Shown piece by piece: positions 5,569 to 14,585 of a stretch of 40,321 nt of DNA (the stretch's first letter is position 1; each line of letters opens with the position of its first letter). The notes under the pieces are model-generated. The model had not been told where the DNA came from. It saw only the letters and a program-made list of their open reading frames with translations, and made no database searches. Location: assembly GCA_947447625.1 (NCBI GenBank), contig CANFKS010000027.1, positions 1-40,321 on the forward strand, in the 5' to 3' direction. A program made the position numbers and the translations under genes. The stretch comes from Rhodospirillales bacterium. GTDB lineage: Bacteria > Pseudomonadota > Alphaproteobacteria > Acetobacterales > Acetobacteraceae.

Positions 5569-6330
5569 TTATTCGGCGCTGGGCAAGGCGGGCTTGCCCT
5601 GGACCCGCGCCATCAGGGCCACGATCGGCGTCACCAGCGCGAGGCTCCGCGCGATCGCGCCCATCCACCAGGGAAAGATGATCCGCCGCTTATGGCGGGG
5701 CAAGGCGCGCAGGATGATCGCTGCTGCCTGGTCGGCGTCCATCAGGCCTGGCATTTTGTAGGGATTGGCCGCCGTCATCGGTGTGCGGATGAAGCCGGGG
5801 CAGATCGAAACCAGGTGAATCCCGCGCTGCGCCGCGGCTGGTGCGGAGGCGACGGCCCAGGCGTCGATGGCGGATTTGCTGGCACCATAAGCCGGGGCGC
5901 CCGGCGTGGGGATGAACGCCGCGACCGAGGCGACCACCGCGACGGTGCCGCCCGGGGCCATGGTTTCGAGCGCGGGGAAGGCGGTGTTGAGGGCGCCGTC
6001 GAGGTTGGTGGCGAAAATGGCGCGCGCCTGTTCGGCGGTTTCGCCGGTGCCGATGCCCGCGCCGCCGGAAATGCCGGCATTGGCGATGACGAGATCGAGC
6101 GGTGCGGCGGCGGCGATCCAGACGGCGGTGGCGGCGGCGTCGGTCACGTCGATCCGCGCGGTATGCACCGCAGCACCTTTGGCGCGGCAAGCGATCGCGG
6201 CGCGTTCGAGGCGCGTTGCGTCGCGGCCGCCGAGATGCAGGGTGACGCCAGGCGCTGCGAGAGCTTCGGCAAGCGCGCGGCCGATGCCGGAGGAGGCGCC
6301 GGTGATCAGGGCTGAGTTGTATAGGGTCAT
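5569..6330 (-). CDS. Short-chain dehydrogenase/reductase (SDR)
   Basis: 253 residues, a classical SDR. The cofactor loop TGASSGIG is at 10-17, NAG at 84-86, and the catalytic Ser135, Tyr148 and Lys152 (YxxxK) are all present. The loop after strand 2 has an Arg (GGRD, about 34-37), which favours NADPH (inference). The C-terminus (about 205-253) has a hydrophobic stretch with FPWWMG, seen in membrane-associated SDRs that act on lipids or hydrophobic alcohols. It is upstream of, and codirectional with, benE, separated by about 90 nt. The substrate cannot be stated. Confidence 0.88.
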   Translation of the reverse strand: MTLYNSALITGASSGIGRALAEALAAPGVTLHLGGRDATRLERAAIACRAKGAAVHTARIDVTDAAATAVWIAAAAPLDLVIANAGISGGAGIGTGETAEQARAIFATNLDGALNTAFPALETMAPGGTVAVVASVAAFIPTPGAPAYGASKSAIDAWAVASAPAAAQRGIHLVSICPGFIRTPMTAANPYKMPGLMDADQAAAIILRALPRHKRRIIFPWWMGAIARSLALVTPIVALMARVQGKPALPSAE

Positions 6331-6383
6331 GTTTCGAGGTTAGCAGGGCGGTGGTATCGTTCGCCACCCGTTGCAGGAATTTC

Positions 6384-7280
6384 ATGATGCCCGCGCCGCT
6401 GATGTCGATGACCGGATTTTCGCGCTGCGAGGGGATCGCGGAGGGGATGAGCTGGGCCTGGGAACTGCGCAGCGTCAACGGAAGGGGGCTCGAATTGCGG
6501 TTCCGCCTGCCCGGCGGTTTCGATGGGCTTGAGGCGGGGCTGAAGGATAGCGCAGGCAAGGTGCTCAAGCGCGGCAACGTGAACGCCAACCTCACCATCA
6601 AGCGCGACGAGGCGGCGCGGCTGGTGGCTGATCCCAAGGCGCTCGGCCAGGTGTTGAAACTGGCGATGGAGATTGCCGCCGAGATCCCCGGCGCCGAACC
6701 GCCGCGGGCCGAGGCGTTGTTGGCGTTGCCCGGCGTGTTGCGCAGCGTCGCGCCCGAACAGGACGAGGCGACGCTGGCAGCGCAGGCCAGCGCCGTGCAG
6801 GCGGGTTTTGCCCAGGCGCTGGCCGGACTCGTCAACGCACGGCAGGGCGAGGGGAACTGGCTGGGCCTTGTGTTGACTGGCCAGCTCGATGAGATCGAGC
6901 GGCTGTGCGCGCGTGCTGCCGAGGAGGCGGCGGGCCAGCCGGCGATGCAGCGGGCGCGGATGTTGGAGGTGATTCGGGGCCTGCTGGCCGAAGTGCCGGG
7001 GCTGCCGGAGGAGCGGATCGCGCAGGAGGTGGCGGTGCTGGCCGGCAAGGCCGATGTGCGCGAGGAGTTGGACCGGCTTGATGCGCATAGTCATGCCGCG
7101 CGGGGTTTGCTGGCCGAGGGGGAGAGTGTCGGACGGCGGCTGGATTTTCTGGTGCAGGAATTCAATCGCGAGGCCAATACGCTGTGCAGCAAATCTGCGA
7201 GTGTGGCATTAACGGCGACGGGGCTGAAGCTGAAGGCCGCGATCGAGCAGTTTCGCGAGCAGGTACAGAACATCGAATGA
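6384..7280 (+). CDS. yicC: YicC/YloC family endoribonuclease
   Basis: 298 residues. The N-terminal SMTGFSR motif and the RSVNGRGLELRFRLP block are the YicC signature; the C-terminal part holds the HSHAARGLL, GRRLDFLVQEFNREANT and SKS blocks that define the family end. YicC proteins are reported endoribonucleases. The open frame reaches a GTG at 6351, but AGGA at 6375 places ATG 6384 (or 6387) at good distance. The stop overlaps the gmk ATG by 4 nt, the standard yicC-gmk pairing in proteobacteria. From here to about 35.8 kb the plus strand becomes clearly G-rich. Confidence 0.93.
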   Translation: MMPAPLMSMTGFSRCEGIAEGMSWAWELRSVNGRGLELRFRLPGGFDGLEAGLKDSAGKVLKRGNVNANLTIKRDEAARLVADPKALGQVLKLAMEIAAEIPGAEPPRAEALLALPGVLRSVAPEQDEATLAAQASAVQAGFAQALAGLVNARQGEGNWLGLVLTGQLDEIERLCARAAEEAAGQPAMQRARMLEVIRGLLAEVPGLPEERIAQEVAVLAGKADVREELDRLDAHSHAARGLLAEGESVGRRLDFLVQEFNREANTLCSKSASVALTATGLKLKAAIEQFREQVQNIE

Positions 7281-7888
7281 GCGATTTGCGCAGAGGCGTT
7301 TGCCTGGTGATTGCCGCCCCTTCGGGGGCAGGGAAATCGACCATCACGCGGCGGTTGCTGGAGAGCGAGCCGGCGCTGAGCCTGTCTGTCAGCGTGACGA
7401 CGCGGGGGCCGCGTGCTGGCGAGGTGGATGGGGTGCATTATCATTTCATCGGCCAGGACCGGTATGACGCGCTGGTTTCGGCTGGCGAATTGCTGGAATG
7501 GGCCGGGGTGTTCGGCAAGTCGTACGGCACGCCGCGGGGGCCGGTGGAGGCCGCGCTGGCGGCGGGGCGGGATGTGGTTTTCGATATCGATTGGCAGGGC
7601 TATCGGCAGATGCGGGCGGCTTTGCCCGAGGATGTCGTGGGGTTGTTCGTGCTGCCGCCGACGGTGGCGGAATTGGAGCGGCGGTTGCGGGGCCGGGGCA
7701 CCGATAGCGAGGCGGTGATCGCGGGGCGGATGGCGGCGGCGCGGGGGGAGATGTCGCATGCGGCGGAGTTTGACTTTGTGTTGGTGAATGACGATTTGGA
7801 GCAGGCGGTGGATGCGGCGCGGTCGGTGCTGGTGGCGGCGCGGTTGGCGGTGCGGCGGCAGGCGGGTTTGTTGGCGCGCTTTACGTGA
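7277..7888 (+). CDS. gmk: Guanylate kinase
   Basis: 203 residues, usual length. The P-loop APSGAGKST is at 14-22, followed by the guanylate-binding segment with SVTTRGPRAGEVDGVHYHF, and by LLEWAGVFGKSYGTP and the DIDWQGYRQM block. It phosphorylates GMP to GDP with ATP in the cytoplasm. The ATG lies in an ATGA overlap with yicC; the longer upstream frame is a shadow of yicC. Its stop overlaps the GTG start of the AEC transporter. Essential gene. Confidence 0.97.
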   Translation: MSDLRRGVCLVIAAPSGAGKSTITRRLLESEPALSLSVSVTTRGPRAGEVDGVHYHFIGQDRYDALVSAGELLEWAGVFGKSYGTPRGPVEAALAAGRDVVFDIDWQGYRQMRAALPEDVVGLFVLPPTVAELERRLRGRGTDSEAVIAGRMAAARGEMSHAAEFDFVLVNDDLEQAVDAARSVLVAARLAVRRQAGLLARFT

Positions 7889-8808
7889 CGGGGTTGTTGG
7901 GGATTATCGGGCCGGTTTTCGGGTTGATCCTGATGGGGGCGGCGGCGGTTCGGTTGAAATGGCTTGAGGTGCCGGCGATCAAGGGCATGAGCGATTTCGT
8001 GTTTTTCGCGGCGATGCCGAGTTTGTTGTTTCTGTCGATCACGACGGCGCCACCGTTGCGGCTGCTGGATGTGGCGGGGAGTTTTTTGGCTGGGGCGGTG
8101 GTGCTGTTTGCGGTGGCGGTGGTGATTGGGCGGCGGTTTTTGGGGTTGCGGCTGGCTTCGGCTTCAATATTCGGGCTCAATGCTGTGTTCGGCAATACGG
8201 TGATGCTTGGGATTCCGATTGTCGATGCGGCGTATGGGCGGGAGGGGGTTGCTAATCTTTTGGCGGTGGTGGTGTTCCATTCGGCGTTTTTGTTGCCGTT
8301 GGCGACGATATTGATCGAGGCGGATACCGGCCGGGGGCAGGGGGTGTTTGGGGTGTTGTGGGCGTCGGTGCCGGGGTTGCTGCGCAATCCGGTGATTGTG
8401 ACGATGCTGGTGGCGTTGAGTTGGCGGTTTTTGGGGGTGCCGGTGCCGGGGGGGATGCAGAGGTTTTTGAGCCTGTTGGGGGGCGCGGGGCCGCCTTTGG
8501 CATTGTTTTGCCTGGGGGCCTCGTTGCCGAAGCCGCAGGGGTGGAGCGATCTGGCCGAGGTGTTGGTGGGGGGGGTGTTCAAGTTGCTGGTGATGCCGGT
8601 GCTGGTGGGGGGGATTGCGTATGCGGTGGGGGTGAGTGGGGTGGCGTTCAAGGTGGTGGTTTTGGCGTCGGCGCTGCCGACGGGGGCGAATGCGTTTATG
8701 CTGGCGCGGCGGTTTTCGACGATGGCGGAGGCTTCGGCGAGCATCGTGGTGGCATCGACGGCGGTTTCGGTAGTGACGCTGGCGGTGTTGCTGAGTTGGC
8801 TTGGATGA
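7885..8808 (+). CDS. AEC family (auxin efflux carrier-like) transporter
   Basis: 307 residues, about ten membrane segments in two halves. The N-terminal GLLGIIGPVFGLILMGAAAVR and the following FVFFAAMPSLLF stretch, and the NAVFGNTVMLGIPIV motif near 110-125, are typical of bacterial AEC proteins (malonate/MdcF-like). The second half has the LPTGANAFMLA motif near 270-280. Inner membrane; substrate probably an organic anion, not determinable. The GTG start overlaps the gmk stop (GTGA), so it is likely co-translated with gmk even though the roles are unrelated. No terminator is visible between it and the convergent gene at 8852. Confidence 0.85.
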   Translation: MTGLLGIIGPVFGLILMGAAAVRLKWLEVPAIKGMSDFVFFAAMPSLLFLSITTAPPLRLLDVAGSFLAGAVVLFAVAVVIGRRFLGLRLASASIFGLNAVFGNTVMLGIPIVDAAYGREGVANLLAVVVFHSAFLLPLATILIEADTGRGQGVFGVLWASVPGLLRNPVIVTMLVALSWRFLGVPVPGGMQRFLSLLGGAGPPLALFCLGASLPKPQGWSDLAEVLVGGVFKLLVMPVLVGGIAYAVGVSGVAFKVVVLASALPTGANAFMLARRFSTMAEASASIVVASTAVSVVTLAVLLSWLG

Positions 8809-10096: not shown

Positions 10097-10960
10097 TCAG
10101 GCCTGGGGTGCGGCGGTGGATTTGGCGCGGCGGGTTTCCCAGCTTTGCATAAGCTGGACGATTGTGGCGGCGGTTTCCTCGATGGAGCGGCGGGTGACGT
10201 CAATGACGGGCCAGCCGCGGCGGGCGCAGAGGCGTTTGGACCAGAGGATTTCGGCTTTGACGGCATCCTGGTCGACATAGTCGCTGCTGTCATGGCGGGG
10301 GCCGGCGCTGGGGTTGCCGCCGATCATGCGCAGGCGGTTGCGGCGGATGTCGATGAGCGCTTCGGCGTCGATGGACAGGCCGATGACGGGGCAATGGGGG
10401 TTGGCCAGGGCGTCGGGTTCGCCGAGGGCGGGGACGAGGGGGATGTTGGCGGCTTTGATGCCGCGGTTGGCGAGATAAAAGCAGGTGGGGGTTTTGGAGG
10501 AGCGGGAGACGCCGACGAGGATCACGTCGGCTTCGGCGATGCCTGCCTGGGCCTGACCGTCATCATGGGAGAGGACGTAGTGGATGGCGTCGATGCGTTT
10601 GAAGTAATCCTGGTCGAGCACGTATTGGCGGCCGGGGCGGGTGGAAGCGGCGGCGCCGAATTGTTCCTGGAAGAGGGAGAGGACAGGATCCAGCACATGG
10701 ACGACGCTGATGCCGAGGCGCTGGCAGGCGAGTTCGAGTTCGCTGCGCAGGCCTTTTTCCATCAGGGTGGAGAGCACGGGACCGGGTTCGGCTTCGATGC
10801 CGTCGATGACTTTATGGACCTGGAAGCGGGTTCGGATGAGGGACCAGCGATGATAGATGATGCGGGAGTCATCGAACTGGGCAACCGCGGCACGGGCAAC
10901 AGCATTGAGGGTATCGCCGGTGGAATCGGAGACCAGATGAAGATTGATGTTGGGGGACAT
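10097..10960 (-). CDS. PPSR kinase/pyrophosphorylase (DUF299, RP001 homologue)
   Basis: 287 residues. It has the N-terminal [12 protein letters not shown] motif, a P-loop-like GVSRSSKT at 150-157, and C-terminal [13 protein letters not shown] and [11 protein letters not shown] blocks that define the family. Characterised members (PpsR, RP1) regulate PEP synthase or pyruvate-phosphate dikinase by ADP-dependent threonine phosphorylation and Pi-dependent dephosphorylation; the target here is unknown. ATG 10960 was chosen over the longer frame because the family starts at this strand. It is the RP001 homologue that flanks the origin in Caulobacter and Rickettsia, and it is transcribed away from the 10961-11337 segment. 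Confidence 0.93.
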
Positions 10961-11337
10961 GGGCTGAGGATAGCGGGGATAAGTGCGCAATGGCAGCCCC
11001 ACCGGCAGCACCGGGCCGGGCAGCGGGGATAAGTTGTACACAGGCGTCGGCGGGGGATGGAATTTCGACAGGGCCGGCGATTGCGGGGATTTCGGCGAAG
11101 TTTTGTTTTATTTCAATCGTTCGGTCTGTTGTAGAAATGTGGACAAGTCAGTGCATGAAATAGGGATTGCTGTGTACCCCGTTTTCCACAGGCCCTACAT
11201 GCTACCACCACCTTTCTATCGGAATCCTCTCTACCGAGTGGGGGGCGATTTCGGGTGCTTCGGCGTTGGGCGGGATGAGCGCTTCTATCGGGGGGCATCC
11301 CGTTCTAAGAGGGGGCTCGAATGGAGCGATCGGGACC
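10961..11337. other. Candidate chromosomal replication origin (oriC)
   Basis: A 377-nt gene-free segment between the divergent PPSR and hemE genes. DnaA-box-like nonamers: TTGTACACA 11034-11042 (+), TTGTCCACA 11138-11146 (minus), TTTTCCACA 11182-11190 (+); the last two differ from TTATCCACA at one base. GCGGGGAT occurs at 10973, 11023 and 11083, spaced 50 and 60 nt (near helical phase); the first two sit in an identical 13-bp AGCGGGGATAAGT. Its complement ATCCCCGC recalls the weak W-boxes of Caulobacter. An AT-rich stretch, 11098-11117 (17 of 20 A/T), could be the unwinding element. One GANTC site is at 11222-11226. No CtrA-type TTAA-N7-TTAA was found. The location matches the Caulobacter and Rickettsia origins. 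hemE promoter elements must also lie here. Confidence 0.65.
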
Positions 11338-12360
11338 ATGGCGAAGCGGATCGAGAGAGTGCTGGCGGGAGAAGCGATCTGGCCGCCGCCGGCGTGGTTG
11401 ATGCGCCAGGCTGGGCGGTATTTGCCGGAATATCGGGCAATCCGGGCGACGGCGGGGGATTTTGTGACGCTGGCGACGACGCCGGCGATGGCGGCGGAGG
11501 TGACGCTGCAGCCGGTGCGGCGGTATGGGATGGATGCGGCGATTTTGTTCAGCGATATCCTGATGGTGCCGTGGGCGCTGGGGCAGGGGTTGTCGTTCAA
11601 GGCGGGGGAGGGCCCGGTGCTGCCACCGATAAGAGATGCTCAGGGGTTGGCGGGGCTCGACATTCGGCGCGTTCCAGGCGCGATCACGCCGATTTTGGAG
11701 GCGGTTCGGCTGGTGAAGGCGGGGGTGGGCGATGCGACGTTGATCGGGTTTGCGGGCAGTCCGTTCACGGTGGCGTGCTACATGGTGGAGGGGGGCGGAT
11801 CAAAGGATTTCGCTGCTGTTCGGGGGTTGGCTTATGCGGACCCGGCGTTGTTCGGGGCGCTGATGGATTTGCTGGTGGAGACGACGATCCTCTATCTGAA
11901 GGCGCAGATCGATGCCGGCGCCGAGGTGGTGATGGTGTTTGATACATGGGCGGGGATGTTGCCGCCGCGGCAGTTCAGGATGCATGTGATCGAGCCGACG
12001 CGGCGGATTGTCAGCGCTGTGAAGGCCGCGCATCCGGGGGTTCGGGTGGTTGGATTTCCGCGGATGGCGGGGATGTTGTTGGGCGAATATGCGGCGGCGA
12101 CCGGGGTGGATGGGGTTGGCGTGGATACGGCGGCCGATCTTGGGGCGGCGCGGGGGTTGGTGGCGGGGGGTATCGCTTTGCAGGGCAATCTCGATCCGTT
12201 GTTGCTGGTGGCGGGGGGGGCTGCGATGGAGGACGAGGCGCGGGGGCTTTGCGAGGCGCTGCGGGGGACGCCGCATATTTTCAATTTGGGGCATGGGATT
12301 GTGCCGCAGACATCGCCGGATCATGTGGGGGCGTTGTTGGCGGCGGTGCGAGGTGGTTGA
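11338..12360 (+). CDS. hemE: Uroporphyrinogen III decarboxylase
   Basis: 340 residues, normal length. PPAWLMRQAGRYLPEYR (17-33) holds the two substrate-binding arginines Arg23 and Arg27; FSDIL (71-75) holds the catalytic Asp73. GFAGSPFTVACYMVEGGGSK and the NLGHGI block near the C-terminus are also diagnostic. It decarboxylates uroporphyrinogen III to coproporphyrinogen III in the cytoplasm. The frame is open to 11167, but homologues begin at the KRIERVLAGE segment, so ATG 11338 is used. hemH follows after 19 nt; first gene of the heme operon. Confidence 0.97.
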   Translation: MAKRIERVLAGEAIWPPPAWLMRQAGRYLPEYRAIRATAGDFVTLATTPAMAAEVTLQPVRRYGMDAAILFSDILMVPWALGQGLSFKAGEGPVLPPIRDAQGLAGLDIRRVPGAITPILEAVRLVKAGVGDATLIGFAGSPFTVACYMVEGGGSKDFAAVRGLAYADPALFGALMDLLVETTILYLKAQIDAGAEVVMVFDTWAGMLPPRQFRMHVIEPTRRIVSAVKAAHPGVRVVGFPRMAGMLLGEYAAATGVDGVGVDTAADLGAARGLVAGGIALQGNLDPLLLVAGGAAMEDEARGLCEALRGTPHIFNLGHGIVPQTSPDHVGALLAAVRGG

Positions 12361-14136: not shown

Positions 14137-14585
14137 CGTGGTCCTGGTTGGCGGATTTGTATTTGTGGATCAAGGCGTTTCATGTGATTGCCATGATCGC
14201 CTGGATGGCCGGGATGTTTTATCTGCCGCGGTTGTTTGTGTATCACTGCCAGGTTCAGCGTGGTTCAGCCGAGAGTGAGCGGTTGAAGGTTATGGAGCGG
14301 CGGTTGCTGAAGCAGATTATCAATCCGGCGATGATTGCGACCTGGGTGTTTGGTGTTTTGTTGGTGATGACGCCGGGGGTTGTGGATTATTCGAGTTTTT
14401 GGTTTCCGGTGAAGGTCCTGGCGGTGTTGGGGATGAGTGGGGTGCATGGGGCGATGATCGGGTGGCGGCTTGGGTTTATGGAGGACCGGAATCGGCGGAG
14501 CCATCGGTATTATCGGGTGGCGAATGAGGTGCCGACGGTGTTGATGTTCGTCATTGTGATCATGGTGATTGTGAAGCCGTTTTGA
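14133..14585 (+). CDS. hemJ: Protoporphyrinogen IX oxidase HemJ
   Basis: 150 residues with four membrane helices. WIKAFHVIAMIAWMAGMFYLPRLFVYH near the N-terminus carries His17; Lys94 lies in the WFPVKVLAVLG segment. A conserved His and Lys at these places are needed in characterised HemJ proteins. HemJ replaces HemY/HemG and oxidises protoporphyrinogen IX in the inner membrane, which gives ferrochelatase its substrate; so hemH and hemJ are consecutive functions in one operon. The start overlaps the HAD gene stop. It converges with the diguanylate cyclase gene with only 22 nt between them. Confidence 0.93.
   Translation: MTWSWLADLYLWIKAFHVIAMIAWMAGMFYLPRLFVYHCQVQRGSAESERLKVMERRLLKQIINPAMIATWVFGVLLVMTPGVVDYSSFWFPVKVLAVLGMSGVHGAMIGWRLGFMEDRNRRSHRYYRVANEVPTVLMFVIVIMVIVKPF

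Follow-up and report, generated by a model that had tools for sequence, protein, structure and literature searches.

A candidate chromosomal origin of replication with a conserved, one-way array of predicted weak DnaA sites between PPSR and hemE in a Rhodospirillales bacterium

The 377-nt gap between the divergent genes PPSR (minus strand) and hemE (plus strand) very probably represents a chromosomal origin of replication of the alphaproteobacterial PPSR-hemE kind, as judged from the sequence of the window (the whole 40,321-nt stretch of contig CANFKS010000027.1 that was analysed) and of its relatives. This reading, which had been proposed in an earlier note on the same DNA, is supported by the position of the gap, its DnaA boxes, the conservation of sites and of their spacing, an inverted box pair that is unique in the assembly and a sign change of mean GC skew in four near-closed relatives. 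It is further supported by the absence of TTATCCCC from loci in which PPSR was not found beside hemE. In type this origin is an already known one, with a form specific to the family.

Pfam searches identified the neighbours of the gap as maf, PPSR, hemE, hemH, a HAD hydrolase, a UPF0093 (hemJ-like) protein and rho (Table 1). The identities of PPSR, maf, hemE, hemH and rho, which had been named as conserved neighbours of the Caulobacter and Rickettsia origins, were thereby confirmed, and the gap is indeed bordered by the start codons of two divergent genes at 10960 and 11338. It has a GC content of 58 percent, and no known RNA was detected in it by Rfam at the gathering score. The closest named matches of hemE, among the best 80 of 522 loci that were kept, belong to Limobrevibacterium gyesilva and to metagenome assemblies of Rhodospirillales and Acetobacteraceae, so that the bacterium probably belongs to the Acetobacteraceae. 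The hemE gene of the window is only 65-67 percent identical to that of same-genus species (L226-L229), for which PPSR reaches 82-90 percent, and it is nearer to the hemE of Limobrevibacterium (L002, 74 percent) than to that of its own genus. Replacement or faster change of this gene is possible. The genes left of maf (an AEC transporter, gmk, yicC and an SDR gene, 5569-8808) were unmatched in the stretches fetched from the same genus, three of which (L227-L229) extend 5.9-9.5 kb past maf and one (L226) under 1 kb; a rearrangement may therefore sit between 8808 and 9479.

Table 1 Features of the candidate origin and its borders, in window coordinates.
Feature	Position	Strand	Basis or remark
Candidate oriC, divergent intergenic gap	10961-11337		Position, boxes, conservation, inverted pair, 50-nt pair
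PPSR, kinase/pyrophosphorylase	10097-10960	-	PF03618, E 5.5e-84; start codon borders the gap
hemE, uroporphyrinogen decarboxylase	11338-12360	+	PF01208, E 6.4e-114
CTATCCTCA, weak box-like nonamer abutting W-type box 1	10965-10973	-	2 mismatches to TTATCCACA; column conservation
TTATCCCCG, W-type box 1 (first GCGGGGATAA copy)	10974-10982	-	Alignment, spacing, family scan
TTATCCCCG, W-type box 2	11024-11032	-	50 nt from box 1; alignment, spacing, family scan
TTGTACACA, DnaA-box-like	11034-11042	+	Near-box; poorly conserved in relatives
Third GCGGGGAT copy, TCCCC core on minus strand	11083-11090	-	60 nt from second copy
85 percent A/T stretch, 20 nt	11098-11117		Composition; adjoins IHF-like sequence at ~11109-11121
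TTGTCCACA, strong-type DnaA box	11138-11146	-	Near-box; strongly conserved in relatives
TGTACCCCG, the window's version of GGGGTACCCCG, a conserved island between the strong boxes	11173-11181		Alignment
TTTTCCACA, strong-type DnaA box	11182-11190	+	Near-box; opposes the 11138 box; conserved GG directly after
CTACCACCACC, DnaA-trio-like run	11202-11212	+	11 nt past right box; trio definition from PMC8287927
Candidate duplex-unwinding stretch	11213-11240		Judged from position; relatives are A/T-rich here, the window less
GAATC, sole GANTC in the gap	11222-11226		Motif scan

Three near-boxes, defined as matches to TTATNCACA with at most one mismatch, are present in the gap at 11034, 11138 and 11182, as had been described, and this count was reached by none of 500 dinucleotide shuffles. 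Nevertheless, three near-boxes by themselves, though rare, do not single out the gap, because clusters of at least three within 377 nt occur three times in 1,006,537 sampled bases of the genome, namely in the gap, at window position 14164 and in contig C16. The cluster at 14164-14540 is located in the hemJ-like gene about 3 kb from the gap and comprises TGATCCACA, TGATACACA and TAATCCACA, all on the minus strand; TGATCCACA corresponds to the G-box described for Caulobacter. It could be argued from the two further clusters that replication in fact starts at dnaA or at a different group of DnaA boxes, but we consider this extremely unlikely, as roughly 17 kb around dnaA (contig C12) hold only four scattered near-boxes and the skew of near-closed relatives changes near PPSR-hemE (see below). 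The inverted pair formed by the two strong-type boxes (TGTGGAYAA N25-54 TCCACAGG) gave a single match in the 4.28-Mb assembly and a reversed-pattern control gave none.

On the PPSR side of the gap, GCGGGGAT occurs at 10973, 11023 and 11083 and thus at the previously noticed steps of 50 and 60 nt, with three copies again reached by 0 of 500 shuffles, and AGCGGGGATAAGT is present twice (10972 and 11022). The earlier note had found these repeats in no known consensus. This could not be upheld, since on the opposite strand they read TTATCCCCG with the core TCCCCG, one base off the core TCCCCA of the Caulobacter W-box (PMC4285127). Similarly, GCGGGGATAA reads TTATCCCCGC on the opposite strand, a DnaA-box TTAT half followed by TCCCC. 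Because of the one-base difference in the core we refer to the sites as W-type and not as W-boxes; exact TCCCCA is absent from the gap. In Caulobacter, W-boxes are bound very weakly by DnaA (PMC4285127) and depend on cooperation with stronger boxes (PMC4468827). Furthermore, the Roseomonas loci L068 and L070 carry a standard box, TGTGGATAAC, near the equivalent place when compared by eye. This, together with the resemblance to W-boxes, suggests that the array is likely to consist of weak DnaA sites. Several relatives (L003, L014, L047 and others) have a 9-nt tandem as their first element (GAGGATAAC GGGGATAAC GGGGA), in which box-like nonamers abut each other. A role of the repeat as a genome-wide regulator motif was rejected, as the 7 copies of GCGGGGATAA in this genome do not exceed the 8 of a control.

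Next, we compared the gap with those of relatives. PPSR was located beside hemE in 62 of the 80 fetched hemE loci, and the two genes are separated by about 291-363 nt in 61 of these and by 1241 nt in L049. The alignment contained 61 gaps and the window (62 rows, all different) and left out L049, due to the distance of its PPSR gene, and L001, which is the window's own sequence. Conserved islands (GAGGATAgCGGGGATAA, GCGGGGATAA, TGTGGACAA, GGGGTACCCCg and TCCACAGGCCC) stand out from the otherwise variable gaps. Among the 62 aligned gaps, GGGGATAA was found in 46, TGTGGAYRA in 51 and TCCACAG in 42, with totals of 75, 60 and 45 compared to shuffled means of 0.4, 1.2 and 1.1, respectively. All 75 copies of GGGGATAA point one way and none the other. 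The spacings of GGGGAY pile up at 50 (34 cases), 51 (7), 60/61 (15), 110/111 (13), 41 (11) and 9 nt (15), so that the comparison across relatives suggested earlier showed the 50/60-nt steps to be conserved. The same comparison had been suggested for the nonamers and gave a divided result, with conservation of the boxes at 11138 and 11182 and poor conservation of TTGTACACA at 11034. Sequence comparison thus shows that the inverted strong-type pair and the one-way TTATCCCC-type array at 50/60-nt steps are conserved.

Across 200 family genomes, the pattern CGGGGATAA N40-45 GGGGATAA gave 23 matches in 22 genomes (reversed control 0). Of these matches, 21 were located 14-93 nt from a PPSR match, 15 at a spacing of 50 and 6 at 51 nt; the two not counted as beside PPSR lie elsewhere (G163:C398) or in a contig for which the place of PPSR was not listed (G019:C138). 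The exact 50-nt pair therefore marks the locus, yet it is a minority trait. The PPSR-hemE locus itself is not universal in the family, as PPSR was undetected in 55 of 299 family genomes searched. At the class level, 20 PPSR-hemE gaps chosen by hand from 95 genomes with a PPSR match contained TCCACA in 18, ATCCCC in all 20 and TTATCCCC in 15 cases on either strand, with TTATCCCC in both directions.

The repeats might instead belong to the promoter of PPSR or hemE or be bound by a regulator of these genes, with the DnaA boxes regulating transcription. Only 5-22 nt separate the first repeat from the start codon of PPSR, the right box is found upstream of hemE, and a role of DnaA as a transcription factor is known (PMC7198777). 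PPSR was missing from the stretch in 18 of the 80 hemE loci (L009, L016, L021-L025, L027, L032, L034-L038, L041, L044, L056 and L081), and none of these carries GGGGATAA, TTATCCCC, TGTGGAYAA or TTDTCCACA within up to 700 nt upstream of hemE (414 nt in L009); one TCCACAGG was present in L081 and GGTACC in five loci. PPSR was sought in 11 of these genomes and found in nine, and neither TTATCCCC nor TTDTCCACA was detected on either strand of the nine PPSR stretches (L279 with only 283 nt). The shorter TATCCCC persists near PPSR in three of them (L280, L284 and L285), which would be in line with a promoter element, although on the strand opposite to the direction of the array. L282 has GGGGAT, and L280, L282 and L285 have one TCCACA each. 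The array thus tracks the linked gap and not either promoter. As, in addition, the inverted box pair is single in the assembly and the mean skew of the four near-closed relatives changes sign across the gap, we consider a purely transcriptional role very unlikely. The origin of the 18 genomes without PPSR in the hemE stretch is probably located elsewhere.

Regarding the other elements of the candidate origin, the 85 percent A/T stretch pointed out earlier is real but only 20 nt long, and the best value over 40 nt in the gap is 70 percent. It is probably not the melting region, because the A/T-rich stretch of relatives sits right of the 11182 box. The adjoining IHF-like sequence shows, by eye, two mismatches to the IHF consensus; TCA....TTG, likewise read by eye, is common in relatives and the window differs from it at two places. 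The right box is kept in 54 of 62 gaps, and in these it is followed by C-rich columns with a rough three-base rhythm (by eye) and then by about 20-25 A/T-rich nucleotides. DnaA-trios repeat 3'-GAT-5' next to a DnaA box, and the published spacer peak is 10-13 bp (PMC8287927). The layout right of the 11182 box fits a spacer, a trio-like run and a putative unwinding region, with an A/T content of only 51 percent at 11196-11240 of the window. The GANTC site of the earlier note was recovered once, at 11222. Relatives' gaps contain on average 2.8 such sites (172 in 62) compared to about 1.2 after shuffling, and because of this shuffled average the single site of the window says little. CtrA gating (TTAAN7TTAA) was rejected: the gap is without the half-site TTAA and is therefore not classed as a CtrA-gated origin. 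No parS-like site was found in the window at up to three mismatches to the consensus.

Based on this arrangement, DnaA may bind the strong pair (11138/11182) first and then fill the weak array cooperatively on one helix face, while IHF or a similar protein would bend the DNA between the strong pair and the array. DnaA could then extend from the 11182 box onto the trio-like run and the A/T-rich stretch on the hemE side, melt this stretch and subsequently load the helicase.

The candidate origin resembles Cori of Caulobacter crescentus, which lies between CC0001/COG1806 and hemE (PMC1914354) and contains two opposed stronger boxes together with several weak TCCCC-type boxes (PMC4285127, PMC10797057). 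It differs from Cori in lacking the CtrA half-site TTAA, in its strong boxes, which are TTGTCCACA and TTTTCCACA and not TGATCCACA, and in its weak boxes, which have a TTAT half, a CCCCG end and 50/60-nt steps. Origins by hemE have also been predicted from boundary genes and boxes in Rickettsia prowazekii and in Wolbachia/Ehrlichia; these predictions additionally use CtrA sites, IHF sites and raised A/T (PMC1914354), whereas the gap described here has 58 percent GC and no CtrA half-site. Compared to the basal unwinding system, the trio-like run starts 11 nt past the right box, but it is CTA/CCA-like and not a clean 3'-GAT-5' repeat, and the boxes form an inverted pair while the commonest published layout is tandem (PMC8287927). 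According to a review, weak DnaA sites of the W-box type have been identified in no bacterium other than Caulobacter (PMC10797057). No origin study of Acetobacteraceae was present among the literature matches listed, which were mainly open literature. E. coli has low-affinity DnaA sites of other types.

GC skew gave a different picture in this genome and in relatives. In the window, the local sign change is located at about 5.5 kb and not at the gap. Local skew was rejected as an origin test, with 13 upward and 12 downward changes past +-0.12 in 1.0 Mb, and the cumulative skew, which the earlier note had put first among the tests, cannot decide in this genome due to the many sign changes. Near-closed relatives were sampled in 20-kb pieces, two as single contigs (G045, G291) and two as their largest contigs (G062, G143; of the 6.48 Mb of G143, the part past 4.12 Mb had just two sampling points), leaving out G100, which was sampled in its first 20 kb only. 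PPSR adjoins hemE in all four, and the mean GC skew was positive right and negative left of the gap in each of them (one-sided p 0.013, 0.040, 0.006 and 0.0001). The best-fit origin was off the gap by 0.3, 17.9, 5.9 and 4.5 percent of the chromosome, and 0, 6, 10 and 14 of 200 positions, respectively, fitted better than the gap. The gaps of G045 and G291 contain neither GGGGAYAA nor TTRTCCCC. Among 62 short loci, the right flank had the higher skew in 44.

The skew of this genome forms strong domains of alternating sign that are nearly independent of gene direction, in the window as well as in the sampled contigs. In the window, 1-kb values range from -0.50 to +0.46, and the four-fold sites of maf and PPSR (minus strand) and of AEC and hemE (plus strand) all show a plus-strand skew of 0.78-0.88. 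In a sample of 1,006,537 bases of the 4.28-Mb assembly with 682 crudely called genes, plus-strand four-fold skew had a standard deviation of 0.424, and neighbouring genes agreed with 0.814 when in the same and 0.606 when in opposite direction. Gene direction was rejected as the cause (correlation -0.012 for 335 and -0.145 for 682 genes from a crude ORF caller). Sign changes are about 5-50 kb apart in six contigs, and a rise in skew takes up less sequence than a fall (median 3.5 kb vs 10.8 kb, p 0.017; 13 upward and 12 downward events). Skew increments are skewed upward in the 1.0 Mb sampled (p 0.009-0.036 by lag), an asymmetry that was not significant in the first 490 kb alone (p 0.095-0.148). 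Four-fold C:G spans 0.757:0.150 to 0.135:0.780, whereas A and T hardly differ from each other, which is unlike plain cytosine deamination. The 5-kb rms skew is 0.160 here and 0.034-0.041 in samples of the four near-closed relatives, in which the mosaic was not seen. It varies within the genus, with 0.18 in G208 and 0.13 in G020 (nine pieces each), 0.08 in G111 (seven) and 0.04 in G165 (three). Inversions are thought less likely as its cause because many transitions are gradual; possible sources include effects of assembly or binning, an unusual mutational process, earlier rearrangements and many replication starts. The mosaic was not reported in the literature matches listed, mainly open literature.

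The combination of a fast rise (3.5 kb) and a slow fall (10.8 kb) is the basis for reading the domains as many replication starts, a shape that can be likened to the N-domains of human chromosomes. Strand asymmetry in the genus would then be broken into dozens of origin-like domains by replication or a replication-like synthesis from many sites, with the ancestral oriC intact at PPSR-hemE, which we regard as an unlikely, speculative scenario. A related and likewise unlikely idea is that the gap is an ancestral origin now dormant or in partial use, and that the genus starts replication elsewhere too, perhaps at many places; it overlaps with our reading, as by descent the locus would remain an origin. 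Both the mosaic with its many sign changes and the position of the gap away from a sign change speak for dormancy. Cyanobacteria with irregular skew, some of which retain dnaA, start replication at several sites and do not need DnaA (PMC7198777), but the skew described here is strong and organised in domains, and the origin-like locus is intact. Boxes and spacings are preserved, the DnaA C-terminal domain is encoded in a 509-aa open frame of the genome, and four-fold sites show no polarisation of A and T to match that of G and C, all of which argues against dormancy. Exact DnaA boxes near upward changes numbered 0 in 92 kb, which is weak evidence as about 1.7 are expected from the background rate.

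A chromosomal origin at PPSR-hemE remains the preferred reading. Against it stand the missing local skew switch, the imprecise fits in relatives, the restriction of the exact 50-nt pair to 22 of 200 family genomes, the lack of a CtrA half-site and of a parS-like site, the less A/T-rich unwinding stretch, the two relatives without array motifs and the family genomes in which PPSR was not found. If the reading holds, the one-way TTATCCCC array at 50/60-nt steps in many Acetobacteraceae would be nature's own experiment on the part that weak sites and helical phasing play in ordering DnaA loading, in a setting without the CtrA sites used in Caulobacter. A skew that breaks the single-origin pattern would weaken a standard method of finding origins, and the process behind it, mutational or replicative, may be a novel one.
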